Source: Alphaproteobacteria bacterium
Lineage (GTDB): Bacteria > Pseudomonadota > Alphaproteobacteria > ATCC43930 > CGMCC-115725
Length of the DNA stretch: 33,863 nucleotides
Assembly: GCA_028871055.1 (NCBI GenBank)
Contig: JAGWON010000024.1
Coordinates: forward strand, 1 to 33,863
Direction: 5' to 3'
Below, in pieces: positions 179-23,752 of the stretch. Position 1 is the first letter of the stretch; every line of letters starts with the position of its first letter. Both the position numbers and the translations under genes were made by a program. Under the pieces are notes generated by a model, which did not search any database, had not been told where the DNA came from, and saw only the letters and a list, made by a program, of their open reading frames with translations.

Positions 179-574
179 TCACGCCCGCTTCCGCTCCAAC
201 AATTTCTCCGCCGCCTCCGCGAGAAAGCGCGAGCGGTTGTTGGTGCGCTCGTCGATCCGCTGCACGAGGTCTTCCGGCAGCGTCACATTGACGCGCAGCA
301 CGCGCTCGGACGGCACGACAGCGCGTACCAGAATGCGGGCCGCCTCGCGCACCTCGGGATCATGCTCGATCCGGTCGAGCGCGCTGGGTTCGGGAATGGC
401 CATGCCGTCCTCGACCATCAGCTCGAGATGGCCGCGCAGGGCTTCCTCCGCATTGTGCGCCGCCTCTTGCGTGCTCTCGCCGGCGCTCGCCAGACCCGGA
501 AGGTCGGGAAAGAAGACGCTGTAACCGGGAAAATCGCCGGTCTCGACAATGGCGGGAAAATAGATGATCGCCAT
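179..574 (-). CDS. hicB: HicB-family antitoxin
   Basis: This 131-aa protein is the antitoxin partner of the HicA-type mRNA interferase encoded just upstream on the same strand. Residues 1-60 form the partial RNase-H-like HicB fold (PAIVE..., PDLPG, then a helix with AEEAL). Residues 90-131 hold a ribbon-helix-helix-like DNA-binding region (RVNVTLPEDLVQRID) ending in a basic tail, so the protein probably also represses its own promoter. The frame is open further upstream, but the ATG at 574 fits the family start and lies 2 bp after the hicA stop, which implies translational coupling. The hicA-hicB order is the usual one. Confidence 0.9.
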   Translation of the reverse strand: MAIIYFPAIVETGDFPGYSVFFPDLPGLASAGESTQEAAHNAEEALRGHLELMVEDGMAIPEPSALDRIEHDPEVREAARILVRAVVPSERVLRVNVTLPEDLVQRIDERTNNRSRFLAEAAEKLLERKRA

Positions 575-576
575 GC

Positions 577-768
577 TTATCTCCTGAGCTTGACGCCCGA
601 TTGCCGCTCGATGCTCTTGAGCGTGCCGATTTTGACGTCCTTGACCGGGTGCGGAACGGTCACCAGGCCCGGCCGTTCGGGGTGGCTGAAATGGTGATGA
701 TCGCCCGTCACGCGTTTGAGCCGCCGGCCATCCGCCTCGATCGCCCGGATCACGTCGCGGCTGTTCAT
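577..768 (-). CDS. hicA: HicA-family mRNA interferase toxin
   Basis: This small basic 63-aa protein has the double-stranded-RNA-binding-like HicA fold: an N-terminal helix (SRDVIRAIEADG), then KRVTGDHHHFSHP with the family catalytic histidine, then VPHPVKDVKIGTLKSIERQSG. Family members cleave mRNA independently of the ribosome and are neutralised by HicB. The frame extends further upstream, but MNSRDVI at 768 matches the family N-terminus. There is no Shine-Dalgarno sequence before this ATG; instead a perfect 6-3-6 palindrome directly abuts the start, so the message may be leaderless or very short-leadered. Confidence 0.9.
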   Translation of the reverse strand: MNSRDVIRAIEADGRRLKRVTGDHHHFSHPERPGLVTVPHPVKDVKIGTLKSIERQSGVKLRR

Positions 769-783
769 GTGTATAGCATACAC
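769..783 (-). promoter_or_regulatory. Palindrome abutting hicA start, probable HicB operator
   Basis: GTGTAT-AGC-ATACAC is a perfect inverted repeat ending one base before the hicA ATG. On the minus strand it contains TATACA, a plausible -10 element. HicB antitoxins with ribbon-helix-helix domains commonly repress their own operon at such palindromes; binding here is inferred. Confidence 0.55.
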
Positions 784-933
784 ACTGGTTGTAAGGCGAG
801 TTCCGTGGCGGTTGGTTGATTTCCCTTGACTTTTCGGCCGGATTGTGGAACAAAAGAAGAACGAAAGCAAGGCGGCTTAGGCGCGGGCAAAGGAGAGCGC
901 TCATATCGTGATAAGCTTGGGCACTGTAAGTTG

Positions 934-1143
934 ATGACCATGCTCAGAATCGAGACCGAACGCGAAGCAGACGGCCGGTGGATCGGCGAGGTGCCGGCGC
1001 TGCCGGGCGTTCTCGCCTACGGCCAAACTGAAGCTGAAGCCCGTACCAGGGCGACCGCTCTTGCGCTGCGCGTGATTGCTGACCGTATCGAGCACGGCGA
1101 GAAACTTCCGGCCGAAGCGCGCGATCTGTTCGCGCCGGCGTGA
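934..1143 (+). CDS. hicB: HicB-like antitoxin (short form)
   Basis: This 69-aa protein consists essentially of the HicB fold alone: TEREADGRWIGEVPALPG, then AEARTRATALALRVIADR. It has no C-terminal DNA-binding domain, unlike the protein encoded at 179-574. The start could be the ATG at 934 or at 940; neither has a strong ribosome-binding site (only GTAAG nearby). It overlaps the following hicA-like gene by 4 bp (GTGA), typical of a co-translated pair. Short HicB proteins of this kind are usually classed as type II TA antitoxins, although some are orphans. Confidence 0.8.
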   Translation: MTMLRIETEREADGRWIGEVPALPGVLAYGQTEAEARTRATALALRVIADRIEHGEKLPAEARDLFAPA

Positions 1144-1352
1144 GCGTCTGGCCGGCCGCGAAAGCGGGCCAGGTTCTGCGGGCGCTTCACCGCATCGGAT
1201 GGGCGCTCAAGCGGCAGAGCGGTTCGCATCGCGTCCTGTCGCGGCCCGGTTGGCAAGACATCGTATTCGCCTTCCACGACGGCGATGAGCTCGGACCGCG
1301 GATATTGGCGCGTCTCGCCAAGCGCACCGGCCTGCGTCCGGAAGATTTATAG
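1140..1352 (+). CDS. hicA: HicA-like (YcfA family) toxin
   Basis: This 70-aa protein starts with GTG inside the stop of the preceding hicB. The body matches the HicA/YcfA fold: AGQVLRALHRIGWALKRQSGSHRVLSRPG with the conserved Gly-Ser-His, then a hydrophobic strand (IVFAF) and a C-terminal helix ending in LRPEDL. It is expected to be an mRNA interferase held by the short HicB. The order is antitoxin then toxin, opposite to the module at 179-768. The terminase-like gene begins 48 bp downstream on the same strand and may be read through from this operon. Confidence 0.8.
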   Translation: MSVWPAAKAGQVLRALHRIGWALKRQSGSHRVLSRPGWQDIVFAFHDGDELGPRILARLAKRTGLRPEDL

Positions 1353-1400
1353 CCGCGCGCAGCGGACGCGAAGGCGTGCGCACGCAACCAAAGGAGTCCC

Positions 1401-2384
1401 ATGGCCTATCGCCGCAACCGCAAGCGGCCGCTCAATCCGCGGCAGCAGAAATTCGTCGAGCAGTTCCTGATCACCGGCATCGGCCGCGACGCTGCCATCC
1501 GCGCCGGCTATTCGCCCGGCGGCGCCACCGAGTCCGCCTGCCGCCTGCGCAAGCTGCCCTATATCGCCGAAGCCATCCGCCAGGGCCGCGCCGGCGAGGC
1601 CCGCCGCGCCCAGGTCGCGCGCGAGCGCGTGCTCTTGGAGCTCGCCCGCGTCGCCTTCTCCGATATCGGCGAAGTGCTCGATTGGACGAGCGCCAAGGAC
1701 ATCACGCTCCGGCCCTTGGCCGAGATCTCGCCGCATCACCGCGCCGCCATCGCCGAGCTCGCGCCGCGCAAGGATGTCGGCCCGCGCGTCAAGCTCCACA
1801 ACAAGTCGCGCGCGCTCGACGCCATCGCCCGCCACCTGGGATTGTTCGACAAGACCGTGCCGGCGGTGCCGCAGCCGTACATGCGCAAGCCGGGCCAGGA
1901 CGCGCGCACCATCCTCGTCGAGCGCCTCAAGCGTCTCGCCTTGTCCGGCGAGACCGAGAGGCAGAAGGAGGAGCGCGCCGCCGCCAGCCTCAACGCCGGC
2001 GCCCCGCTGGGCCTGCCATCGTTCGCGGCGGATACGTCGTCAGATCCGTCACCCCCACCCCAACCCTCCCCCTTCGAGGGGGAGGGAATTGAAAAGAAAT
2101 CCCCCTCGCTCTTCGAGGGCGCGGGTCATGACGAGGGTGTGGGTCATGACGAGGGCGCGGGTCATGACGAGGGTGTGGGCCATGACGACGGCGTGGGTCA
2201 TGACGACGGCGTGAGTTATGACGAGGGCGTGGGTCATGACAAGAAAATACCCTCCCCCCTTGAGGGGGGAATTATCCCGTTGACAAAACATTTCTCTAGG
2301 CATACGATTGCTCCATCTTCGATAGGTGGCGCACATGCAGAACGAGGTTTTTCAGGACGACACAAAGGCGCGCGAGTGGCTTGA
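1401..2384 (+). CDS. Terminase small-subunit-like protein with rearranged C-terminus
   Basis: Residues 1-195 look like a phage terminase small subunit of the Terminase_2 type: LNPRQQKFVEQF, then a helix-turn-helix with DAAIRAGYSPGGA, and a helical oligomerisation region. In phages this protein recognises DNA for packaging by the large subunit; no large terminase or other phage gene is visible here, so this is an orphan or prophage remnant. AGGAG lies 5 bp before the ATG. From about residue 205 the sequence is unlike a terminase. It reads through a palindromic repeat (PPPQPSPFEGEG), about seven copies of an 18-bp repeat encoding a GHDEGV-type hexapeptide, then into the left end of the insertion sequence, where it finally stops. 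The last 39 residues or so are therefore encoded by the IS. Confidence 0.7.
   Translation: MAYRRNRKRPLNPRQQKFVEQFLITGIGRDAAIRAGYSPGGATESACRLRKLPYIAEAIRQGRAGEARRAQVARERVLLELARVAFSDIGEVLDWTSAKDITLRPLAEISPHHRAAIAELAPRKDVGPRVKLHNKSRALDAIARHLGLFDKTVPAVPQPYMRKPGQDARTILVERLKRLALSGETERQKEERAAASLNAGAPLGLPSFAADTSSDPSPPPQPSPFEGEGIEKKSPSLFEGAGHDEGVGHDEGAGHDEGVGHDDGVGHDDGVSYDEGVGHDKKIPSPLEGGIIPLTKHFSRHTIAPSSIGGAHAERGFSGRHKGARVA
2064..2086. repeat. REP-like palindrome (family A)
   Basis: CCCTCCCCC-TTCGA-GGGGGAGGG is a perfect palindrome inside the extended terminase reading frame. The same motif recurs around the IS insertion site, near 4290, 5675, 7885 and 29660, so it belongs to a dispersed repeat family of this genome. 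Confidence 0.8.
2121..2242 (+). repeat. 18-bp tandem repeat, about seven copies
   Basis: Consensus GTGGGTCATGACGAGGGC is repeated six full times plus a partial copy, with small substitutions (GAGGGT, GACGGC, AGTTATG). The unit is a multiple of three, so the reading frame encodes an acidic hexapeptide repeat (V/A-G-H-D-E/D-G). Each copy carries the palindrome TCATGA. Copy number is likely to vary between strains. Confidence 0.9.
2259..2266. repeat. Left target-site duplication of the IS element
   Basis: CTTGAGGG directly before the left terminal repeat is identical to the 8 bases directly after the right one at 4233-4240. An 8-bp duplication is the size expected for the IS1595 family. The target was itself a CCCTCCCCCTTGAGGGGGAGGG-like palindrome split by the insertion. 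Confidence 0.85.
2267..2290 (+). repeat. Left terminal inverted repeat of the IS
   Basis: It starts GGGAATTATCCC and pairs with the reverse complement of 4209-4232, with three mismatches in the inner half. Confidence 0.9.
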
Positions 2385-3279
2385 GGCCCATCTGTGGCCG
2401 AATGGTCCGGTGTGCCCGCATTGCGGCACAATCAATGAAGCCACGCTGATCCGCGGCGAGAAGCGCTCGCATCGCGATGGCCTCTACATGTGCAACGCCT
2501 GCCGCCAGCAATTCACGGTAACGGTCGGTACGATTTTCGAGCGTTCGCATGTGCCGCTGAATAAATGGCTGTATGCGACGTTCCTGCTGTGCGCGAGCAA
2601 GAAGGGGATTAGCTCGCACCAGCTGCACCGCATGCTGGCCGTCACCTACAAGACGGCTTGGTTCATGAGCATGCGTATTCGCGAAGCGATGCGCGAGGGC
2701 AAGTTTCCGGGGCGGCTCGGGGGCGACGGCAAGATGGCTGAGGCCGATGAGACTTACGTAGGCGGTCGAGAGAAGAACAAACACCGCCGCAAGCGCCGCT
2801 CCGACAACATCGGCGGTATGGGCAAAGAGCCGGTTTTCTCGATTGTGGAACGCGGGGGCAAGGTGCGCTCGCAACATGTGCCGGAAGTCAGCGCCGAAAC
2901 GCTGCGACCGCTCTTGCAGACCCAACTCGACGCTAAAACCGTTCTCATGACGGATGGCGAAGGCCAGTACCGCATCATTGGACCGCTGTTCGCCAAGCAT
3001 GAAGCCGTCAACCACGGCATCGGCGAATACGTGCGCGGCGACGCCCACACGAATACGGTCGAGAGCTACTTTGCGACGCTGAAACGCGGCATCACCGGCA
3101 CCTACCACCACGTCAGCCAGCAGCACCTTAAGCGGTATCTGGCCGAGTTTGATTTCCGGTACAACGAACGCTCGGCGCTCGGCGTTGAAGATCGCGAACG
3201 CGCCGCGAAGGCCCTCAAGGGAATTGTAGGAAAGCGCGTGACCTACAAGCGACCTGGTAACGCGCGACTCGGCGCGTAA
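2335..3279 (+). CDS. IS1595-family transposase
   Basis: This 314-aa protein catalyses cut-and-paste or replicative movement of the surrounding element. An N-terminal zinc ribbon is visible (CPHC at residues 27-30 and CNAC at 53-56), followed by helices and a DDE catalytic domain. That domain has EADETYVGG (D138), MTDGEGQY (D207) and HTNTVESYF (E243). The C-terminus has the FDFRYNERS stretch usual for ISXO2-like transposases. The frame opens a few codons earlier with GTG, but the ATG at 2335 preceded by AGGTGG fits better. Length and motifs look complete. Confidence 0.95.
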   Translation: MQNEVFQDDTKAREWLEAHLWPNGPVCPHCGTINEATLIRGEKRSHRDGLYMCNACRQQFTVTVGTIFERSHVPLNKWLYATFLLCASKKGISSHQLHRMLAVTYKTAWFMSMRIREAMREGKFPGRLGGDGKMAEADETYVGGREKNKHRRKRRSDNIGGMGKEPVFSIVERGGKVRSQHVPEVSAETLRPLLQTQLDAKTVLMTDGEGQYRIIGPLFAKHEAVNHGIGEYVRGDAHTNTVESYFATLKRGITGTYHHVSQQHLKRYLAEFDFRYNERSALGVEDRERAAKALKGIVGKRVTYKRPGNARLGA

Positions 3280-8944: not shown

Positions 8945-9571
8945 TCACGTCACCGCGGCGCTGCGCAGGACGGCGACGCCAGCTTCGCGCATCGCCGCCA
9001 TGGCCCGATCGAGCGAGCCTTCGAGGTCGATGGCGCGGCAGGCGTCTTCAATGATCGTGACTTTGAATCCTTCGCGCCGCGCGTCCAGCGCCGACCACGC
9101 CACGCAATAATCGGTCGCGATGCCGGCAAGCCAGAGCTGCGTCAGACCACGTTCGCGCAGATAGCCGGCGAGGCCGGTCGGCGTCGTGTGGTCGTTCTCG
9201 TAGAGCGCCGAATAGGAATCGATCGCCGGGTCGAAGCCCTTGCGGATGACCAGCTCGGCCCGCGGCACGTGCAGCTTGGGATGGAACGCCGCGCCGGCGG
9301 TATCCTGGACGCAATGGTCGGGCCACAGCGTCTGCGTGCCATAGGCGACGGCGATGGTCTCGAACGGCTTGCGGCCGGGATGGGAGCTGGCGAAGGATTG
9401 GTGGCCGCGCGGATGCCAGTCCTGGGTGAGGCCGACATGGCGGAAGCGCCGCGCGAGATCGTTGATCAGCGGCACGATCGCGTCGCCGTCCTTCACCGCC
9501 AGCGCGCCGCCCGGACAGAAATCGTTCTGCACGTCGACGATCAGCAGAAAATCGCTCGCGCCCGGCGTCAT
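8945..9571 (-). CDS. pncA: Nicotinamidase
   Basis: This 208-aa cysteine hydrolase of the isochorismatase-like superfamily deamidates nicotinamide to nicotinate for NAD salvage. The catalytic triad is visible as D13 (VDVQNDF), K111 (VIRKGFD) and C156 (ATDYCV). The metal-binding residues D51, H53 and H86 lie in DWHPRGHQSF and WPDHCVQ. The cis-peptide region GIATDYC is typical of PncA. Length is normal. It is divergent from the oxidoreductase operon and shares its 217-bp upstream region. Confidence 0.95.
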   Translation of the reverse strand: MTPGASDFLLIVDVQNDFCPGGALAVKDGDAIVPLINDLARRFRHVGLTQDWHPRGHQSFASSHPGRKPFETIAVAYGTQTLWPDHCVQDTAGAAFHPKLHVPRAELVIRKGFDPAIDSYSALYENDHTTPTGLAGYLRERGLTQLWLAGIATDYCVAWSALDARREGFKVTIIEDACRAIDLEGSLDRAMAAMREAGVAVLRSAAVT

Positions 9572-9788: not shown

Positions 9789-10931
9789 ATGGCCACCGGA
9801 TCCGTAGAGATCGTATACCGCGGTGTCTTTCAGAAGACACTAGCAAAGAACATCTGCCGTGGAATCGTCTTCGCCGCGAGAAAACAGGGGAAAGTCGGGA
9901 TCGCCTTCTCGCGCTACAGTGACTCTCCCGAACGCAATGGCATCCCCGCCAAGCAATTCGCCGTCGTTGCTGACACGGACGAAGAGATGGAGGAGTACCT
10001 GTCACGGTACGAGCCCGACAGCAACGACGTCACCATTGTGGCTGATGACACGTTGTGCAAAGGCATCGAATCTTGGGCATGGAACGGCCTGCAGCCGGTC
10101 AACAGGATGCTCAAGGCGGGGGGCACGCTTCTGGTCACCTCGACCCGTTCGGCGAACAGCCTGATCCGTGACATCCACCGCAAGGGCGAGCCTTTCAATC
10201 TCGCCGTCGTCAAGGGTCGCGCCAGCTTCTCGGGGATGTGGGTTTACCGCGATGATCACACCGACATGCGCCTGCTCGGCGCGCTTGCCAAGGTCGCACC
10301 GCATATCGTCACCCTGGATTCCATCGTTGCGGCGATCAACGAGCCGAAGAAAAACGACCTCAAGGCGGCTTCCGCGAAGCAGGCCTACGATCTGGTTGCC
10401 TCGACCACGGTCGGCGCCAATCAGGGCAACGACACCGTCCCCTTCAGGTTCGACTTGCCCGGGTGGCGGAAAATGGAAGAGTGCCTGGTGGTTGGCGCCC
10501 GGAAGGTCAAGCAGGAGGTTCCCGGCTGGGACGGCGGCTACGTTCCCGGGCGCAACCCCACCTACAAGAAGTTCACGACGCGCACCTTGCGGCCGGTGAT
10601 CAACTTCGACACCTGCACCAAATGCACGATCTGTTGGATGCAATGCCCGGACACCGCCTTCGACATCACGCCCGACGGCTACTACGACGCCAACATGGAG
10701 GCATGCTGCGGCTGTGGCATCTGCGAGGCGGTCTGCCCGGTGGCCAACTGCGTCACCATGGTCAATGAGGAAGCCTTCACGGATAACCAGAGCCAGTGGC
10801 GAATGTGGGCCAAGGACAAGAAAACCTACGCGGCCTGGCGGGTGGAAAGGATTTCGTTGCCGGCCGTCCGTAGCCACGGGTTTCAGCACTTGGGCCAATA
10901 TGCGGAGGAGATAGCCAATGAGCGCCGTTGA
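9789..10931 (+). CDS. 2-oxoacid (probably oxalate):ferredoxin oxidoreductase, fused gamma-delta subunit
   Basis: This 380-aa protein joins the gamma domain (residues 1-185) to a ferredoxin-like delta domain (about 255-335). The gamma part has IVYRGVFQKTLAKNICRGIVFAARK and VADDTLCKG. The delta part carries two [4Fe-4S] motifs, C276/C279/C282/C286P and C306/C309/C312/C316P, which pass electrons from the TPP site to soluble ferredoxin. A fused gamma-delta chain is how I recall the Moorella oxalate oxidoreductase being arranged, whereas pyruvate and 2-oxoglutarate enzymes usually have separate or all-in-one chains. The ATG at 9789 follows GAGGGAGG at good spacing. The 3' end overlaps the alpha gene by 14 bp. 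The clusters should be oxygen sensitive. Confidence 0.9.
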   Translation: MATGSVEIVYRGVFQKTLAKNICRGIVFAARKQGKVGIAFSRYSDSPERNGIPAKQFAVVADTDEEMEEYLSRYEPDSNDVTIVADDTLCKGIESWAWNGLQPVNRMLKAGGTLLVTSTRSANSLIRDIHRKGEPFNLAVVKGRASFSGMWVYRDDHTDMRLLGALAKVAPHIVTLDSIVAAINEPKKNDLKAASAKQAYDLVASTTVGANQGNDTVPFRFDLPGWRKMEECLVVGARKVKQEVPGWDGGYVPGRNPTYKKFTTRTLRPVINFDTCTKCTICWMQCPDTAFDITPDGYYDANMEACCGCGICEAVCPVANCVTMVNEEAFTDNQSQWRMWAKDKKTYAAWRVERISLPAVRSHGFQHLGQYAEEIANERR

Positions 10932-12186
10932 CACAGCTATTCCTACTCCGAAGAAATCGCCTCTCGATGTGGTGATCGCCCCACGCACTGAAAACGAGGA
11001 GCTCATCAGCGGCAGTGAAGCGATCGCACATGCCGTCCGGCTCGCCAACGTCGACGTGATCACGGCGTATCCGATCCGTCCCTACGACACTGTCATGCAG
11101 TACGTGTCGAAGATGATCGCCGACGGCGATTTCGACTGCGAATTCATCGTTGCCGAGAGCGAGCACTCGCAGTTCGAGATCGTGAAGCACGCGTCCGCCG
11201 TAGGGGCACGCGTGTTCGCGGGCTCGAGCGGCGTTGGCTGGTTCTACGCCTTCGAGGCGTTGGCGGTGACCGCCGGGTTGCGCCTGCCGATGGTCGCCAT
11301 GGTAGGCAACCGGGCTCTGGACGATCCTGGTGCTTTCGGGGTTGAGCACAACGATGCGCTCGCGGTGCGCGACCTCGGCTGGATGCTTTGCTGGGTGTCG
11401 ACGGCGCAAGAGGCGTTGGACACCGCACTGATCGCCTACCGGGTGGCCGAGGATCCGCGGATTTTCCTGCCTTGCGCGATCAGCTGTGATGGTGCGTTTC
11501 TCACCCACTCGCAGTCGATCGTCAAGGTCCCCAGCCAGGCTATGGTCGATAGCTTCCTGCCGCGCTACGACCGGGGAGACAAGCGCCTACACCCGGACAA
11601 TCCGATCACCATCGCCCCGCAGGTGAACGAGGATTGGCTGATGGAGATGCGTCGTCAGAGCGACGAGGCGGCACGCCGGGCCAGCGATGTCCTCATCGAA
11701 GCCTACCGCGATTTCAATGCGAAGTTCGGACGCGGCGGCGAGCCCTTCATCGAGCGCTACATGATGGACGATGCCGAGGTCGCTCTGGTGGGAATGGGGA
11801 CGATGGCCATGCCCGTGAAGGTGGCTGTTCGCAAGATGCGGGAGCAAGGCAAGAAGGTCGGCTTCGTGCGCGTGAGATGGTTCCGCCCGTTCCCCACCCG
11901 CGAACTGCAGGACGCACTCGCCGACGTGCACGCCGTAGGTGTCATCGATCGCGACTTCAGCTTCGGCTCGGCCTTTTTCAGCGGCGTGTTGGCCAACGAA
12001 CTACGTTCCGCGCTGTACCCGGCAAAGAAGAAGAACCAGCCCAAGATCCTGTCATTCATCGCCGGTCTGGGCGGACGCGAAGTGAGCACCGGTAACGTGA
12101 TGAAAATGACCAAGACCGTCTTCGACGCCGCAAACGGCGTCGGCACCGACGCGCAAGACACCTACTGGATCGGAGCACGGGAGTAA
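10918..12186 (+). CDS. 2-oxoacid (probably oxalate):ferredoxin oxidoreductase, alpha subunit
   Basis: This 422-aa subunit combines the pyrimidine-binding domain I with domain II. SGSEAIAHAVRLANVDVITAYPIRP (residues 31-55) is the family N-terminal motif, but pyruvate enzymes have YPITP and here the threonine is R54. The substrate loop reads GNRALDDPGAFGVEHND (130-146), with R132, D135 and F140. My recollection of the Moorella oxalate enzyme (Arg31, Arg109, Asp112, Phe117) gives a constant offset of 23 to these residues, which supports oxalate as substrate. That numbering needs checking. GGAGGAG lies 7 bp before the ATG, inside the preceding gene, so translation is coupled. Confidence 0.9.
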   Translation: MSAVDTAIPTPKKSPLDVVIAPRTENEELISGSEAIAHAVRLANVDVITAYPIRPYDTVMQYVSKMIADGDFDCEFIVAESEHSQFEIVKHASAVGARVFAGSSGVGWFYAFEALAVTAGLRLPMVAMVGNRALDDPGAFGVEHNDALAVRDLGWMLCWVSTAQEALDTALIAYRVAEDPRIFLPCAISCDGAFLTHSQSIVKVPSQAMVDSFLPRYDRGDKRLHPDNPITIAPQVNEDWLMEMRRQSDEAARRASDVLIEAYRDFNAKFGRGGEPFIERYMMDDAEVALVGMGTMAMPVKVAVRKMREQGKKVGFVRVRWFRPFPTRELQDALADVHAVGVIDRDFSFGSAFFSGVLANELRSALYPAKKKNQPKILSFIAGLGGREVSTGNVMKMTKTVFDAANGVGTDAQDTYWIGARE

Positions 12187-12191
12187 CGGCC

Positions 12192-13211
12192 ATGCAAGAA
12201 GCGAAAGAACAGGCAAGCGCGCGTGATTTCACGTCACCGCAGGTGCTCGAGCCGTGGACCGGCATCAAGAAAGTCGCCCATGAGGAGTATTACACCTCGG
12301 GTCATCGCACCTGTCAGGGCTGCGAATCGGCGCAGATGATGCGGCTCCTGGCCAAGGCGGCCGGCCCGCGCACGATTGTCGTCGGCGCCACGGGCTGCAT
12401 GTACGTGGCCAACACGACCTATTACTCCACGCCGTGGGTATTGCCCTGGATGCACACGCAACTCGGCTCCGCTGGCTCCGCAGCCACCGGTACCGCCGCC
12501 GGCCTGCGAGCGTTGATGCGCAAAGGCAAGATGGACAAGGAGCCGATCAACGTCATCGCCGTCTGCGGCGACGGCGGGGGCGCCGACATGGGGCTGTCGG
12601 CGATTTCGGCGGCACTGCAGCATACCCAGTACAACTTGCTGGTCATGTTGTACGACAACGAATCTTACGCCAACACCGACATCCAAATTTCGGGTTCGTC
12701 GCCGTACGGCGTGAACACCAGCTTCAGCCCGCCGGGCAAGCTGCACCGTATCATGCACAAGCATTGGAAAAAGAACACCGCGCCCATGCTCGCGGTCGGT
12801 CATCCGGACTGCCGATACGTCGCAACCGTCGTCGCCTCGAACGCCGTCGACACCTTGAACAAGGTGCGTCGGGCGCTCAGCATCGGCGGGCCGACATTCC
12901 TTCACTCGCTCAATCCATGCCCGAAAGGCTGGGATTACGATCCGAAGTATTCCCAGCAGATCGGCGAGCTTGCGGTGGAAACCGGCATCTGGCCGCTCTA
13001 CGAAATCGAAGACCGGAAGCTGAAGATGTACGGCAAGAGCCAGCACATCGCGAGCGGCGTGGTCAAGCGTAAGCCGGTCAGCGAGTATCTGTTGCGGCAA
13101 GGACGATTCGCCCACTTCACGCAGGAAGACATCGCGCGTGTCCAGGCGAGAACGGATGAAATGTGGGAGAAGTGGTTCCTCCCCGGGGTGATCGCGCTCT
13201 CCGGGGCCTAG
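12192..13211 (+). CDS. 2-oxoacid (probably oxalate):ferredoxin oxidoreductase, beta subunit
   Basis: This 339-aa subunit binds thiamine pyrophosphate and a [4Fe-4S] cluster. The TPP/Mg motif is CGDGGGADMG (125-134) followed by LYDNESYANT (153-162). Likely cluster ligands are C41 and C44 (TCQGCES), C69 (GATGCMY) and C243 (LNPCPKGW), the pattern of 2-oxoacid:ferredoxin oxidoreductases. It begins 5 bp after the alpha stop with GGGAG upstream. With the alpha and gamma-delta chains it would oxidise a 2-oxoacid without CoA if the substrate is oxalate, giving two CO2 and two low-potential electrons. Confidence 0.92.
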   Translation: MQEAKEQASARDFTSPQVLEPWTGIKKVAHEEYYTSGHRTCQGCESAQMMRLLAKAAGPRTIVVGATGCMYVANTTYYSTPWVLPWMHTQLGSAGSAATGTAAGLRALMRKGKMDKEPINVIAVCGDGGGADMGLSAISAALQHTQYNLLVMLYDNESYANTDIQISGSSPYGVNTSFSPPGKLHRIMHKHWKKNTAPMLAVGHPDCRYVATVVASNAVDTLNKVRRALSIGGPTFLHSLNPCPKGWDYDPKYSQQIGELAVETGIWPLYEIEDRKLKMYGKSQHIASGVVKRKPVSEYLLRQGRFAHFTQEDIARVQARTDEMWEKWFLPGVIALSGA

Positions 13212-13281
13212 CTCGGTACGACGTGGGAGATAGCGTTGCGACCGCTGCGGACCACTCGCTTTAACCGAGCAGGAAGACAAG

Positions 13282-13584
13282 ATGACGACCGTCGTCACCG
13301 ATAATTGCCGGCGCTCTCGTTTCACGGACTGCGTATTGGTCTGCCCGGTCGCGTGCTTTCATGGCGACGATGAGATGCTCTATATCGACCCCGTGGTATG
13401 CATCGATTGCGGGGCGTGCATATCCAAATGTCCAGTCCAGGCGATCTACGAAGATCCGATACCGGCTGACAAGCAGCATTGGATTGAAATCAATGCGATG
13501 CGCGCGCCCGCCTTGCCGGTAATCAGAACGAAGCAGGAGCCTTACCCGGGCGCCGAAGCGAGAAAGAAGGCATTGGGGTTCTGA
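13282..13584 (+). CDS. 7Fe-type ferredoxin
   Basis: This 100-aa ferredoxin is of the FdxA type. The N-terminal site reads DNCRRSRFTDCVLVCPVACF (C9, C17, C21), where position 12, often Cys in this family, is Ser; this suits a [3Fe-4S] cluster. The second site, CIDCGACISKCP, supports a [4Fe-4S] cluster. The C-terminal extension of about 45 residues is normal for the type. AGGAAG lies 6 bp before the ATG. It follows the beta gene by 70 bp and precedes the reductase gene by 55 bp, so it is the natural electron carrier between them. Confidence 0.93.
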   Translation: MTTVVTDNCRRSRFTDCVLVCPVACFHGDDEMLYIDPVVCIDCGACISKCPVQAIYEDPIPADKQHWIEINAMRAPALPVIRTKQEPYPGAEARKKALGF

Positions 13585-13639
13585 CGTCGGCAAGCCCATT
13601 ACCGCCGTCTAGCTGTCTCGACGCCGGGTATTTCGCGCC

Positions 13640-15016
13640 ATGAGCAGTCTTGGGACGCAAAAAAACCCGTTGCGCGCAGCCATTGTCGGCAGCGGCCCGG
13701 CCGGCTTCTACGCTGCCGAGGCGCTGATCGGATCGGCGCCGGCGGTGCTCGTCGACATGTTCGAGCGGCTGGCCTCGCCTTTCGGGCTGGTGCGCAGCGG
13801 CGTCGCCCCGGACCACCCGAAGCTCAAGCAACCCATCAAAGTCTATCAGCAAATAGCCGAGTCCCCGCAGTTCCGATTCCTCGGCAATGTCACCGTCGGG
13901 CATGACGTCAGCGTGAAGGAGCTCAAGGATTGCTACCATGTGGTCATATTCGCCTGCGGCACGCAAACCGACCGGACCATGGGGATTCCGGGGGAGTCTC
14001 TGCCGGGCAGCCACGCGGCAACCGAGTTCGTCGGCTGGTACAACGGCCACCCCGACTACCGCGACCTGGTGTTTGATTTGTCGCATGAGACCGCGGTCGT
14101 CATCGGACAGGGGAACGTCGCCGTCGACGTGTGCCGAATTCTTGCCAAGACAGCGGACGAGCTGCGACATACCGACATCGCCGCGCACGCTCTTGAGGTT
14201 CTGGCACAAAGCAGAATTCGCGACATCCATATGATCGGACGCCGCGGTCCGGCGCAGGCGAAGTTCACGCATCCGGAGATCAGAGAGCTCGGGGAATTGG
14301 CGGAGTGCGACCCGGTCGTGGATCCGCGTGATCTCGAGCTCAATTCGGCGAGCCGCGAGGAACTCGCGGACAAAAGAAACCGCGCCAATATCAAGAGCTA
14401 TGAGGTGCTGCAGGCGTTCGCGGCCCGGCCGCCATCGACCCGCCACCGGCGCTGTCACATCGAATTCCTCAAGAGCCCGATCGAGCTCAGCGGCGAAGGC
14501 AGGCTCGAGCGCGTGGTGCTGATGCGGAATCGTTTAGAGGGGGAACCTTCACGGCAGGTCGCTCGGGAGACCGGCGAAATAGAGGAGCTCGCATGCGGCG
14601 TGCTCTTCCGCAGCATCGGCTACCGTGGCGTTGCTATCCTCGGGGTTCCGTTCGATGAGGCGCGTGGCGTCATCCCCAATCGGGACGGACGCGTGATCGA
14701 TGATGGGGACGTCGTTGCTGGATTGTATGTCACGGGCTGGATCAAGCGCGGACCGACCGGGATCATCGGCACCAATCGAGAGGACAGCGTGCTGACGGTC
14801 AATTCGATCTTGGCTGATCTGCCGCACCTCGATGTTGGCGCGAGGCCGGGCATGGACCGATTGCGGGCTCTTTTGGAAGGCCGCGGGAGTCGCGTGGTCA
14901 GCTATGCGGATTGGCAGAAGATTGATGCGGCAGAAATACGGCGCGGCCAACCGGCAGCAAAGCCGCGGGAGAAGTTTACTCGGCTGAAAGAAATGCTGGA
15001 TGTGCTCGGAAGCTGA
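13640..15016 (+). CDS. Ferredoxin-NADP+ reductase, adrenodoxin-reductase/FprA type
   Basis: This 458-aa flavoprotein matches adrenodoxin reductase and mycobacterial FprA. It has an FAD site (VGSGPAGFYAAEAL, residues 16-29) and the family signature PFGLVRSGVAPDHPKLK. An NADP Rossmann motif VIGQGNVAVDVCRIL is followed by IGRRGPAQAKFTHPEIREL, whose arginines bind the NADP phosphate. GWIKRGPTGIIGTNR is the C-terminal FAD contact. It would transfer electrons from the 7Fe ferredoxin to NADP+, or the reverse. It lacks a clear Shine-Dalgarno sequence. It is the last gene of the operon. Confidence 0.93.
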   Translation: MSSLGTQKNPLRAAIVGSGPAGFYAAEALIGSAPAVLVDMFERLASPFGLVRSGVAPDHPKLKQPIKVYQQIAESPQFRFLGNVTVGHDVSVKELKDCYHVVIFACGTQTDRTMGIPGESLPGSHAATEFVGWYNGHPDYRDLVFDLSHETAVVIGQGNVAVDVCRILAKTADELRHTDIAAHALEVLAQSRIRDIHMIGRRGPAQAKFTHPEIRELGELAECDPVVDPRDLELNSASREELADKRNRANIKSYEVLQAFAARPPSTRHRRCHIEFLKSPIELSGEGRLERVVLMRNRLEGEPSRQVARETGEIEELACGVLFRSIGYRGVAILGVPFDEARGVIPNRDGRVIDDGDVVAGLYVTGWIKRGPTGIIGTNREDSVLTVNSILADLPHLDVGARPGMDRLRALLEGRGSRVVSYADWQKIDAAEIRRGQPAAKPREKFTRLKEMLDVLGS

Positions 15017-15374
15017 TCGGGCGGACAGCACGATCAACGTCGTAGGAGATCATCCATCCCGACATCGGGGAACGTTGCCCCGACATCCGCCCGCTGCCCA
15101 GGCGATCCCGGTGCCAGAGGACGGAAATAGCTGGTTTGCATCATCGGCTGCATCGTCTCGCAACGACCGCGCCGAAACGAGCCGGCAAAGCAATCAATAG
15201 GAATAGCGGCCGCTAACCCGGCTGCCGGGCCTCGACGCTTTCGGGCCTGCCGCCGAGGTGCTAGGTTGACACGGCAAATGCGTGCTGCCGGTGGCGGCGC
15301 GCGCAGTGGGGCTTCTGTCCACGACGCTTTTTACTGGTTTTTTTCGATTGTGTGCGCCTGTCCGCGGTCGGCAC
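15017..15374. other. Intergenic region with hairpins
   Basis: I see no gene in these 358 bases. TCGGGG-AACGTTG-CCCCGA at 15065-15083 can form a 6-bp stem 49 bp after the reductase stop and may mark the operon end, but it lacks a T-run. A second GC-rich inverted region lies near 15208-15235 (CGGCCGCTAACCCGGCTGCCGGG). A TTGACA at about 15266 could be a -35 element for the kinase gene, but no good -10 follows. The kinase frame itself opens at GTG 15282. Confidence 0.5.
15065..15083 (+). terminator. Possible terminator hairpin after the oxidoreductase operon
   Basis: A perfect 6-bp stem (TCGGGG/CCCCGA) encloses a 7-nt loop. There is no downstream U-tract, so intrinsic termination would be weak; it may instead mark a Rho-dependent or processed end. 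Confidence 0.35.
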
Positions 15375-21086: not shown

Positions 21087-22640
21087 TCAGTGCGCGTCTT
21101 TGGCCGGCTGCGCCGGCGCGGCGACCGTGCGCATCAGCGGCACCAGCAGCGTGGCGACGACGAAGGCGACCATGATGGCGCGGAAGGCGTCGGCATAGGC
21201 CATGGTCGCCGCCTCGCGATAGGCGAGGTCGTGGAGTTGTTGGAGCGCGGCGTGCTGTCCGGCGCCGGCCGAGCCCAGCACCGTGGCAAGCCGCGCGCTC
21301 AGTCCCGTCAGCAGCCGCCCCATCGCCGCGTTTGCCGGCGTCAGGCTCGAGGCGATGTCGAGGAAGTGCCGGTTGGTCGCGTCGTTGAGGATGGCGCCGC
21401 CGAGCGCGATGCCGACCGCGCCGCCCAGATTGCGCATCATGTTGAACAGGCCGCTGGCGTATTTGAGCCGCACCGGCGGCAGGCTGCCGAGGCCGAGCGT
21501 CACGGCCGGTCCAACCGCGAACACCTGGGGAAAGCCGCGCAGGATCTGCGGCACCAGCAGCTGGTCGCCGCCCCAGTCGTGGGTGATGAAGCTGAAGCTC
21601 CACATCGACAGGCCGAAGCTCGCCAGGCCGAACATCATCAGCCAGCGCAGGTCGACCTTGCGCCCGAGCGCGACATAGATCGGCACGCCGACGAGCGACG
21701 CGGCGCCGGTCGAGAAGATGGCGACGCCGGTCTGCCAGGCGGAAAAGCCGCGCACGTAGCCGAGGAACAGCGGCGTCAGGTAGATGGTCGAGAAGATGCC
21801 GATGCCGGTGACGAAGGACAGGATGCAGCCGAGCAGGAAGTTGCGGTTGCCGAGCGCGCGCAGATCGACCACCGGCCGCGCCGTGGTCAGGCTGCGGATC
21901 ACGAACAGGACTCCGGCGACGGCGGCGACGATCGCGCAGTCGCGGATGGTCGGGTCGCTGAGCCAGTTCCAGCGCGCGCCTTCCTCGAGCACGTATTCGA
22001 GCGTGCCGAGGCCGACCGCCATGAGCGCGATGCCGGGATAATCGGCCTCGCCCAAGAGCGACAGGTCGGGCTCGTCGATATCGACCAGCAGGGCGACGCC
22101 GAGCGCCACCAGCAGTCCGGGCATGAGATTGATGTAGAACAGCCAGTGCCAGTCGAGCGTGTCGGTGATCCAGCCGCCGATGACGGGACCGAGCGTCGGC
22201 GCGACCGAGGCGATGGTGCCGACCACGGCGGCCGCGTAGATCCGCTGCTGGCCTTGGAAATAATGGAAGGACGAGGTGAAGACGGTCGGAATCATCGACG
22301 CGCCCAGCATCCCCTGGAGCGCGCGGAAGACGATCATGCTGTCGATGTTCCAGGCCAGGCCGCACAGCATGCTGGCGAGGGTGAATCCCAACGCCGAGGC
22401 GGTGAACAGCCAGCGCGTCGAGAACACGCGGGTCAGCCAGCCCGACAGCGGAATGACGACGATCTCGGCGATGAGATAGGCGGTCTGGACCCAGGAAATC
22501 TCGTCCTGTGCCGCCGATAGGCCGCCGCCGATGTTCTGAAGCGACGAGGCGACGATCTGGATGTCGAGCAGGGCGACGAACATGCCGACGCACATGACGG
22601 CGAAGGGCAGGATCGCCTTGACGCCCGCCGGTCCGCTCAC
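21087..22640 (-). CDS. DHA2-family MFS drug efflux transporter, EmrB/QacA type
   Basis: This 517-aa transporter has about 14 TM segments. The N-terminal motif reads VALLDIQIVASSLQNIGGGL; loop A is GWLTRVFSTRWLF, and motif C is seen as PTLGPVIGGWITDTLDWHWLFYINL. It exports hydrophobic compounds with proton antiport, together with the membrane-fusion protein encoded upstream. The start is GTG at 22640, overlapping the HlyD stop by 4 bp (GTGA). The frame is open further upstream, but that part is only antisense of, or in another frame to, the HlyD gene. Confidence 0.93.
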   Translation of the reverse strand: MSGPAGVKAILPFAVMCVGMFVALLDIQIVASSLQNIGGGLSAAQDEISWVQTAYLIAEIVVIPLSGWLTRVFSTRWLFTASALGFTLASMLCGLAWNIDSMIVFRALQGMLGASMIPTVFTSSFHYFQGQQRIYAAAVVGTIASVAPTLGPVIGGWITDTLDWHWLFYINLMPGLLVALGVALLVDIDEPDLSLLGEADYPGIALMAVGLGTLEYVLEEGARWNWLSDPTIRDCAIVAAVAGVLFVIRSLTTARPVVDLRALGNRNFLLGCILSFVTGIGIFSTIYLTPLFLGYVRGFSAWQTGVAIFSTGAASLVGVPIYVALGRKVDLRWLMMFGLASFGLSMWSFSFITHDWGGDQLLVPQILRGFPQVFAVGPAVTLGLGSLPPVRLKYASGLFNMMRNLGGAVGIALGGAILNDATNRHFLDIASSLTPANAAMGRLLTGLSARLATVLGSAGAGQHAALQQLHDLAYREAATMAYADAFRAIMVAFVVATLLVPLMRTVAAPAQPAKDAH

Positions 22641-23752
22641 GGCGCGCTCCGCGGATCGGACCGTGTGTCCACCGCCACCGTCGTCGACAGGCCGGGCCGC
22701 AGCAGGCCGAGCGTCGCGCTGTCGTCGTCGAGCACGATGCGGACGGGAACGCGCTGGACGATCTTGGTGAAGTTGCCGGTGGCGTTCTGCGGCGGGATGA
22801 CGCTGAACACCGCGCCAGTCGCCGGCGCCAGGCTGACGACGTGGCCGTGGAAGACGCGGCCGGCGAGCACGTCGGCGGCGACGGTCGCCTTCTGGCCCGG
22901 ACTCATGCGGGCGAGCTCGTTTTCCTTGAAGTTGGCGTCGATCCACAGCCCGTGCGCGGGAACGACGGAGAGCAGCGTGGTGCCGGACGTGACGTAGGCG
23001 CCGACCTGTGCCAGGCGATCGCCGACATAGCCGTCGATCGGCGAGTCGATCTCGGTATAACCACGGTCGAGTTGCGCCGTTCGTAGATCGGCCTCGGCTT
23101 GGGCCTCGGCTGCCTTGGCGCCGGCGATCTCGGTTTCGAGCACGGCGAGCTGCTGCCGGGCGGCGTCGAGCGCCGCGGCGGACGCCAGCACCGCCGCCTG
23201 CGCGGTCTGCGTCGCCGCGAGCGCGCGTTGCGAGCTCTGCACCGAGCCGGCGCTGACGCGGGCGAGGGTGCGATAGCGGATCGCGTCTTCGTCGGCGAAC
23301 ACGGCGGCCGCCTTTTTGGCCGCAAGGTCGGCCTCGGCCTGGCGGATCGTCGCCTGCTGCAGCGTAGTTTTTGCCTGCAGGTTGGCGAGCGCGGCCTGAC
23401 GCTCGCCGACGGTTGCGGTGGCGCGATCGAGCGCGGCCTGGAAGTCGCGGGGGTCGAGGCGGACGAGCGGCTGGCCTTGCCGCACGTATTGATTGTCCGC
23501 GACCAGGATTTGCGCGACGAAGCCGGCGACATGCGGCGCGATCGGCGTCACGTCGCCGCCGACATAGGCGTCGTCGGTGGTCTCGACGAAGCGGCCGAGG
23601 GTCCACCAGTGTTCGCCGTACCACAGCGCGACGAGCGCGGCGAGGCCGAGCGCAATCGCGGCGACGCGCCGGCGCGAGGCGAGCCGCCCGATCACCGCCG
23701 CCGGCGCGACCGCGACGCGGTCGATACCCTGATCGATCGTCTGTTCGCTCAT
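22637..23752 (-). CDS. HlyD/EmrA-family membrane fusion protein
   Basis: This 371-aa periplasmic adaptor of the efflux pump has one N-terminal TM (residues 30-48, VAAIALGLAALVALWYGEH). A biotinyl-lipoyl-like half follows (VGGDVTPIAPHVAGFVAQILVADNQYVRQGQPLVRLD), then a long alpha-helical hairpin rich in Ala, Gln and Glu (about 95-210). The second lipoyl half (YTEIDSPIDGYVGDRLAQVGAYV) and a beta-barrel domain come last. The ATG at 23752 lies 11 bp after the HxlR gene. With EmrB it would span towards an outer-membrane channel, which is not encoded here. Confidence 0.93.
   Translation of the reverse strand: MSEQTIDQGIDRVAVAPAAVIGRLASRRRVAAIALGLAALVALWYGEHWWTLGRFVETTDDAYVGGDVTPIAPHVAGFVAQILVADNQYVRQGQPLVRLDPRDFQAALDRATATVGERQAALANLQAKTTLQQATIRQAEADLAAKKAAAVFADEDAIRYRTLARVSAGSVQSSQRALAATQTAQAAVLASAAALDAARQQLAVLETEIAGAKAAEAQAEADLRTAQLDRGYTEIDSPIDGYVGDRLAQVGAYVTSGTTLLSVVPAHGLWIDANFKENELARMSPGQKATVAADVLAGRVFHGHVVSLAPATGAVFSVIPPQNATGNFTKIVQRVPVRIVLDDDSATLGLLRPGLSTTVAVDTRSDPRSAP

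Follow-up and report, generated by a model that had tools for sequence, protein, structure and literature searches.

Organization of the operon

The window examined here is a 33,863-nucleotide stretch of alphaproteobacterial DNA taken at its full length (G000:C7:1-33863; its genome, G000, comprises 3.07 Mb in 33 contigs), and its subject is a five-gene operon on the + strand at positions 9789-15016. The first gene (9789..10931) encodes a fused gamma-delta chain of 380 amino acids, recognized by a phmmer match to 5c4i_B and by comparison of its AlphaFold model with 5exe_E. The second (10918..12186) encodes an alpha chain with domains I-II of thiamine pyrophosphate (TPP) enzymes, placed by its match to 5c4i_A, the profile NF045791 and a tree, and the third (12192..13211) a beta chain of the kind that binds TPP and the proximal [4Fe-4S] cluster, with 5c4i_C as its best PDB match. 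Genes for a 7Fe-type ferredoxin of the FdxA family (13282..13584) and an adrenodoxin-reductase-type NADPH-ferredoxin reductase (FNR; 13640..15016) follow. An initial annotation of the window had proposed this five-gene, single-strand arrangement with a fused gamma-delta chain, and both coordinates and families were confirmed. The open frame of gamma-delta begins at 9354; the ATG at 9789, with GAGGGAGGA just upstream, agrees with the start of the homologues' consensus, and the stop codon ends at 10931. The gamma-delta and alpha genes overlap by 14 bases, and 5 bases separate alpha from beta. Fused gamma-delta, alpha and beta chains together make up the chain architecture of oxalate oxidoreductase (OOR).

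Relationship to oxalate oxidoreductase

For all three chains, the top PDB match by phmmer was the OOR of Moorella thermoacetica (EC 1.2.7.10; PDB 5c4i, 5exd, 5exe), the one OOR whose structure is available in the PDB copy used. The alpha chain matched 5c4i_A with 331 bits (next, the Methanosarcina pyruvate:ferredoxin oxidoreductase (PFOR), 228 bits), the beta chain matched 5c4i_C with 299 bits versus 195 for PFOR, and the gamma-delta chain matched the OOR delta entry 5c4i_B over residues 8-330 (E 3.9e-20). Similarly, the OOR models NF045790/1/2 ranked first in NCBIfam for the three chains. The alpha chain scored 384 bits with NF045791, 344 with PorA and 277 with PadG (cut-off 700, not reached), and the archaeal-type PorA profile came first for 9 of 9 sampled alpha chains from outside the clade defined below. 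Phenylglyoxylate dehydrogenase was compared by profile score alone, the tree containing neither PadG nor a 2-oxoglutarate enzyme by name.

A contig scan with the window alpha gave 120 relatives, of which the best 80 were taken, yielding 79 loci; further relatives were drawn from scans of the window's own genome and of Alphaproteobacteria. Their identities to the window alpha formed two groups, one of at least 62% (with one fragment at 57%) and one of ~38% or less. In a 95-row maximum-likelihood alpha tree, which leaves out the duplicates L004-L006 and the fragments L054, L057, L059 and L085, 38 rows including the window formed one group with support of 100/100, hereafter the clade. The clade was joined exclusively to Moorella OOR (100/100), the sole named OOR in the tree, whose branch is long (1.37). 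Outside this group lay 53 other homologues and the PDB sequences of pyruvate enzymes; the window alpha does not, then, sit inside the pyruvate enzymes. Identity to the Moorella alpha chain was 40.8-46.0% across the clade and 31.0-38.7% among the others.

A structure prediction was made for the gamma-delta chain (AlphaFold; mean predicted local distance difference test score 67.8, with six stretches below 50, including 219-264, 287-305 and, at the end of the tail, 361-380). The three top structural matches of this model were OOR entries (Z 21.4-21.7, 266-277 residues aligned, root mean square deviation 4.1-4.2), led by chain 5exe_E (Z 21.7, 270 aligned, deviation 4.2), with PFOR gamma chains next (Z 19.2 and 19.0, 168-169 aligned). 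Overall, the window enzyme is nearest to OOR in every sequence, tree and fold comparison made. Because the curated OOR cut-offs were not reached and Moorella Asp116 was not retained, as detailed below, we assign the clade to a branch sister to Moorella OOR and not to a plain match of it.

Active-site residues of the alpha and beta chains

The phmmer alignment of the window alpha to 5c4i_A is gapless up to the GNRALDDPGAFG stretch with a constant offset of 23. Therefore, R54 of YPIRP (codon 11077..11079) and R132, D135 and F140 within GNRALDDPGAFG correspond to Moorella Arg31, Arg109, Asp112 and Phe117, as the initial annotation had pointed out. R54 was present in all 42 clade rows with a letter at that position (44 rows, two of them gapped and two from duplicate genomes) and in 0 of 53 other homologues, which carry Thr (52) or Ser (1); the threonine of the pyruvate-enzyme motif YPITP is absent from the window alpha. 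D135 was found in 43/43 clade rows and 0/53 others, and F140 in 43/43 and 1/53. These counts, like those of the cluster ligands and the gamma-delta tail below, retain the duplicates L004 and L005. R132, however, occurred in every row with a letter there in both groups, including all 53 non-clade homologues, and is therefore not diagnostic of OOR. The earlier view that the arginines and the loop mark OOR thus stands for R54, D135 and F140, which are rare elsewhere, but Arg132 had to be ruled out as a signature.

Within the loop R132-A-L-D135-D136-P-G-A139-F140 (11311..11337), aligned with Moorella, D135, G138 and F140 are common to both enzymes, and Asp136 occupies the position of Moorella Pro113 in 38/38 clade rows. 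Among 176 clade-invariant alpha columns, 23 also occur in Moorella OOR but seldom in the other homologues, compared with 1 shared with an archaeal PFOR under the same rule; position 44 is counted among the 23, although the window has Asn there where the clade has Asp. The 147 clade-invariant beta columns gave a similar result, 20 versus 1. In beta, Asn143 of Moorella, which a 2025 survey names together with Glu154 of gamma as an OOR catalytic-site residue (PMC12654022), corresponds to Asn161; it was present in 38/38 clade rows, yet also in 52/52 other enzymes. The Glu154 column, which lies beside a gap, holds Asp or Glu in the clade (27 and 11 of 38). Two residues past Asn161, Asp163 (codon 12678..12680) was found in 38/38 clade rows, where Moorella and 52/52 other beta chains have Gly. 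Near the active site the clade thus loses one acidic residue (Asp116) and gains two (alpha Asp136 and beta Asp163). PMC5020499 assigns Asp116 and Arg31 to the 'bait and switch' of OOR, and the residue counts suggest that this acidic switch may have moved in the clade.

These results bear on whether the operon encodes a diverged PFOR, or a phenylglyoxylate dehydrogenase, with a chance arginine. The archaeal and bacterial PFORs (PDB 9bt4, 1b0p, 6cin) belong to the same superfamily and share TPP and [4Fe-4S] chemistry with the window enzyme, and the PorA profile scores 344 bits; they differ in YPITP, a pyruvate-type loop and a separate tree position. Since the arginine is fixed in 42/42 rows and the tree sets pyruvate enzymes outside the group of OOR and clade (100/100), we rejected a chance arginine in a pyruvate enzyme, and the adjacency of the relatives' operons to oxalate genes, described below, argues in the same direction. 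We regard this explanation as highly improbable.

Cluster ligands and the gamma-delta tail

All 12 Cys ligands of three [4Fe-4S] clusters are present in the window enzyme, as they are in Moorella. The four in beta (C41, C44, C69, C243) were kept in 38/38 rows, and the eight in gamma-delta (C276, C279, C282, C286, C306, C309, C312 and C316, in two motifs at 10614..10736) were likewise all kept in 38/38 rows, two of them duplicates; here the 38 rows per chain are chains of >330 or >300 amino acids, a different set from the 38 clade rows of the tree. Further Cys residues were conserved in the clade, namely C125 of beta (38/38) and C307 (37/38) and C321 (38/38) of gamma-delta.

Further, the gamma-delta chain carries a C-terminal extension with an RxHGxxxxGxY motif (10782..10928) that is not found in Moorella OOR, whose gamma-delta ends about 14 residues past the last Cys-Pro of the cluster motif. 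Of 41 chains, 40 were scored; their tails beyond the final cluster motif measured 62-103 residues, and 38 of the 40 had the RxHGxxxxGxY motif. This tail at 10782-10928 is possibly an oxygen shield or a docking part.

Oxalate genes near related operons

We next counted genes beside the operon in 42 non-duplicate clade loci on stretches of 3-34 kb, many of them short (L004 and L005, from the same genomes as L036 and L026, were left out). The thresholds were chosen after the tblastn table had been seen, and the tblastn database also took in L102-L108 and L110-L112, which were used there only. The control was 38 non-clade loci of 2-oxoacid:ferredoxin oxidoreductases (OFORs), mostly from Clostridia and a poor phylogenetic match. 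A gene for Frc, Oxc or an oxalate/formate antiporter-like protein lay beside the operon in 11/42 carrier loci versus 0/38 control loci. Frc was found in 7/42 and Oxc in 4/42; a GntR-FCD regulator in 6/42; a major facilitator superfamily (MFS) protein related to the L022 antiporter in 3/42; and the TctC and TctA components of a tripartite tricarboxylate-type transporter in 18/42 and 17/42, each with 0/38 in the controls. Several of these genes pass curated cut-offs: the L031 Frc scored 679 bits with TIGR03253 (cut-off 504), the L037 and L060 Oxc scored 1023 and 1005 with TIGR03254 (cut-off 739), and the L022 MFS protein, encoded directly after FNR, scored 549 bits with the TIGR04259 oxalate/formate antiporter model (cut-off 335). 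Under the threshold were, among others, a Frc-like match of 44.6%, some 7 kb from the L043 operon, and weak TPP-enzyme or MFS matches in four control loci. With 17 distinct Frc-positive carrier genomes, the chance of seven Frc genes lying so near the operon was 1e-10 to 5e-13 in a uniform model, which takes no account of shared descent. An MFS gene inside the window (21090-23624) was considered as an oxalate antiporter and rejected, as no tblastn match between it and the L022 antiporter was obtained at E 1e-15.

Other recurrent genes were seen at these loci. In 4/42, a TPP enzyme 26-27% identical to Oxc stands beside Frc, where other loci have Oxc (L031:5542-7263, L024:2656-4407, and also L023 and L026). 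The L031 copy scored 446 bits against a cut-off of 587 for acetolactate synthase PRK05858, 355 against 600 for 2-hydroxyacyl-CoA lyase and 223 against 739 for Oxc, and enzymes of this type are possibly non-orthologous oxalyl-CoA decarboxylases or formyl-CoA condensing enzymes. An Fmt-like formyltransferase, which perhaps links formyl-CoA or formate to folate, was likewise present in 4/42 loci (L031:12334-13260, L024, L026 and L060); its L031 copy scored 166 bits, under the fmt cut-off of 201.5. Among 13 Rokubacteria/Methylomirabilota loci (L044-L051 and L053-L057), TctC is encoded after the oxidoreductase chains in 10, L045 having an antiporter-like MFS gene (44%) at the place of TctC, and upstream a cluster with a PdxR/MocR-like representative occurs in 10 and one with a PdxT representative in 8.

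Frc and Oxc in the same genomes

The initial annotation had noted no frc/oxc route in the window and had therefore cast the enzyme as an alternative to the formyl-CoA pathway. The genes are indeed lacking in the window, but the window's own genome encodes both, Frc on contig C19 (723 bits, cut-off 504) and Oxc on C26 (953 bits, cut-off 739), and the absence of a formyl-CoA route was accordingly rejected. Because Frc and Oxc are encoded in the same genome and frc/oxc adjoin homologous operons elsewhere, replacement of the formyl-CoA pathway is unsupported; the OOR-type enzyme coexists with Frc and Oxc. The C19 Frc gene has as neighbours an acyl-CoA ligase, SucCD-like genes, a NuoF-like subunit, a formate dehydrogenase alpha chain (734 bits, cut-off 666) and a gene matching a GntR-type regulator profile under its cut-off. 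Two more POR_N matches were observed in this genome (G000:C30:17301-17999 and G000:C23:95430-95924; L001 and L003); the frames that hold them, 634 and 645 residues long, probably encode gamma-alpha fused 2-oxoacid oxidoreductases.

Of 44 carrier genome handles, 19 (17 distinct genomes) had Frc above its cut-off, all of them recorded as Proteobacteria or its groups or as the window's class. Oxc did so in 7 of 42 carrier genomes, a count that, like that of haem-copper oxidases below, leaves out G389 and G399 (the same genomes as G228 and G306). Because the control loci were mostly from Clostridia, we added a class-matched count: of 385 genomes of Alphaproteobacteria, 35 had Frc over the cut-off and 3 carried the clade alpha, and all 3 had Frc.

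Ferredoxin, FNR and a possible link to NADP

The window ferredoxin matched NF045490 FdxA_Protbact with 104 bits, under the cut-off of 135, and its Cys spacing, judged by eye, is presumably of the 7Fe type. By phmmer, the window FNR matches FprA (1lqt, E 1.2e-117) and, likewise over the full length, adrenodoxin reductase (1cjc, E 8.1e-114); like FprA, it contains the NADP-related motif GRRGP. Its genomic partner, however, is an OFOR with a 7Fe-type ferredoxin. FNR was linked to the operon in 7/42 clade loci and ferredoxin in 5/42, versus 0/38 control loci for each. FNR lies downstream in the window, L022, L026 (a copy just 45% identical) and L029, and upstream in L024, L060 and L085. L022 has gamma-delta, alpha, beta, an unplaced 100-residue frame, ferredoxin and FNR in that order, and the window has the same order minus that frame. 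In L024 and L060 both ferredoxin and FNR lie upstream, and the linkage has therefore survived rearrangement.

A linked FprA-type FNR makes NADP coupling plausible. It could instead be that oxalate is oxidized while the electrons do not reach NADP+, with ferredoxin and FNR serving other partners and reduced ferredoxin being used directly. The linkage of FNR in 7/42 loci only, and the lack of any FNR match in the Rokubacteria and Chloroflexi stretches, speak for such a route, whereas the FNR-linked loci are recorded as alpha-, beta- and gammaproteobacterial, and the linkage is kept among them, with FNR upstream in some loci and downstream in others. We consider this route rather unlikely.

Proposed function

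Taken together, we think it likely that the three-chain enzyme is an OOR-type 2-oxoacid oxidoreductase that oxidizes oxalate to two CO2, with electrons passing via ferredoxin and FNR to NADP+. Oxalate would be bound by Arg54 and Arg132 of alpha and add to TPP, and two CO2 would be released with no need for coenzyme A. The beta-chain cluster and then the two clusters of gamma-delta would carry two low-potential electrons to the linked ferredoxin, from which the linked FprA-type reductase would pass them to NADP+. Electron flow would be downhill, since the potential of the oxalate/CO2 couple is far below that of the NADP couple. In parallel, Frc, Oxc and formate dehydrogenase would convert oxalate to formate and yield NADH. 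Together with an OxlT-type antiporter, Frc and Oxc share the proposed substrate, some neighbourhoods and a genome with the window enzyme; their route differs in being non-oxidative and CoA-dependent and in yielding formate, and the enzymes are unrelated to those of the window.

OOR-type identity, as first annotated, is supported by the best PDB matches of three chains, the tree, the 23 + 20 shared positions versus 1 + 1, the gamma-delta fold and the relatives' oxalate genes. The window and Moorella enzymes have in common a fused gamma-delta chain, YPIRP, the Asp112 and Phe117 equivalents, the 12 cluster Cys and the universal Asn143 of beta. Where Moorella has Asp116 and Pro113 of alpha and Gly145 of beta, the window enzyme has Ala, Asp and Asp; further differences are the tail of about 50 residues on gamma-delta and, in some loci, the linked ferredoxin and FNR.

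Several observations weigh against an oxalate-oxidizing function. Identity to the Moorella alpha chain is just 44%, and the curated OOR cut-offs are not reached by alpha (384 of 500 bits), beta (342 of 590) or gamma-delta (93 of 230). Moorella Asp116 is Ala139 in the window and Ala in 38/38 tree rows. The own genome's frc and oxc are on contigs other than that of the operon, and an MFS gene near this oxc matches only a lactate-transporter profile, under its cut-off. Further, 31/42 loci had no Frc, Oxc or antiporter-like MFS gene on the stretch examined, many of these being short, and no carrier genome outside Proteobacteria had Frc or Oxc over the cut-off. An alternative is an enzyme that uses YPIRP for another small 2-oxoacid from the same area of metabolism, such as glyoxylate or mesoxalate, and leaves oxalate to Frc and Oxc only. 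In its favour, the OOR cut-offs are not reached, Asp116 is not conserved, and frc and oxc of the same genome already handle oxalate. However, PMC5020499 describes the OOR motif YPIRP as unique, the loop and further alpha and beta positions follow OOR, and among the annotated neighbour clusters, which cover part of the neighbours, there was no glyoxylate-specific family. We judge another substrate to be improbable and retain oxalate as the likely one.

Distribution of the clade and oxygen respiration genes

The carriers of the clade are recorded as Acetobacteraceae, Rhodospirillales, Kiloniellales, Xanthobacteraceae, Beta- and Gammaproteobacteria and Proteobacteria, and further as Chloroflexi/Dehalococcoidia, Rokuibacteriota, Methylomirabilota and Acetothermia, with a fragment from Acidobacteria. 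Of 95 genomes in the phylum to which the L044 genome (recorded as Rokuibacteriota) belongs, 49 have the clade alpha. A match to the haem-copper oxidase family PF00115 was found in 42/42 carrier genomes, two of them scoring <350 bits; the family also covers nitric oxide reductases. These haem-copper oxidase genes set the clade carriers apart in the comparison with Moorella. This spread over several phyla, the Asp116-to-Ala change and the extra gamma-delta tail go beyond the initial annotation.

A 2025 probiotics survey presents OOR as belonging to certain anaerobes and, by BLAST, found it only in Blautia among the species examined (PMC12654022). A large survey left OOR out of consideration (PMC8062136), and annotation revealed none in a genome study of the soil bacterium Paraburkholderia terrae (PMC5986945). 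In the literature searched by titles and abstract openings, we found no report of OOR from an aerobe and no mention of a multi-phylum OOR-like clade with haem-copper oxidase genes. It is this clade, more than the single operon, that is the notable point. We lean, with some reserve, towards a second OOR branch in oxygen-respiring bacteria (Rokubacteria, Chloroflexota and several Proteobacteria) that would oxidize oxalate directly. In this branch the acidic switch would have moved (Asp116 lost, alpha Asp136 and beta Asp163 fixed), the extra Cys residues and the gamma-delta tail may protect the clusters against oxygen or provide a docking site for a partner, and some Proteobacteria would feed a ferredoxin-FNR pair to make NADPH, complementing the formate and NADH of Frc, Oxc and formate dehydrogenase. 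If so, direct oxalate oxidation would extend to uncultured soil, groundwater and marine bacteria with haem-copper oxidase genes, oxalate cycling would include an uncounted sink and source of reductant, and the clade may offer an OFOR adapted to oxygen.

Other features of the window

A scan of the window for promoters and terminators gave no signal exceeding shuffled sequence. Downstream of FNR, a CHASE/PAS histidine kinase is encoded at 15282, and upstream of the operon lies an isochorismatase-domain gene on the opposite strand. Genes for a HicB-like antitoxin, a phage terminase small subunit and an IS1595-type transposase cluster at the start of the window (179-3276), which is probably a mobile-element remnant.

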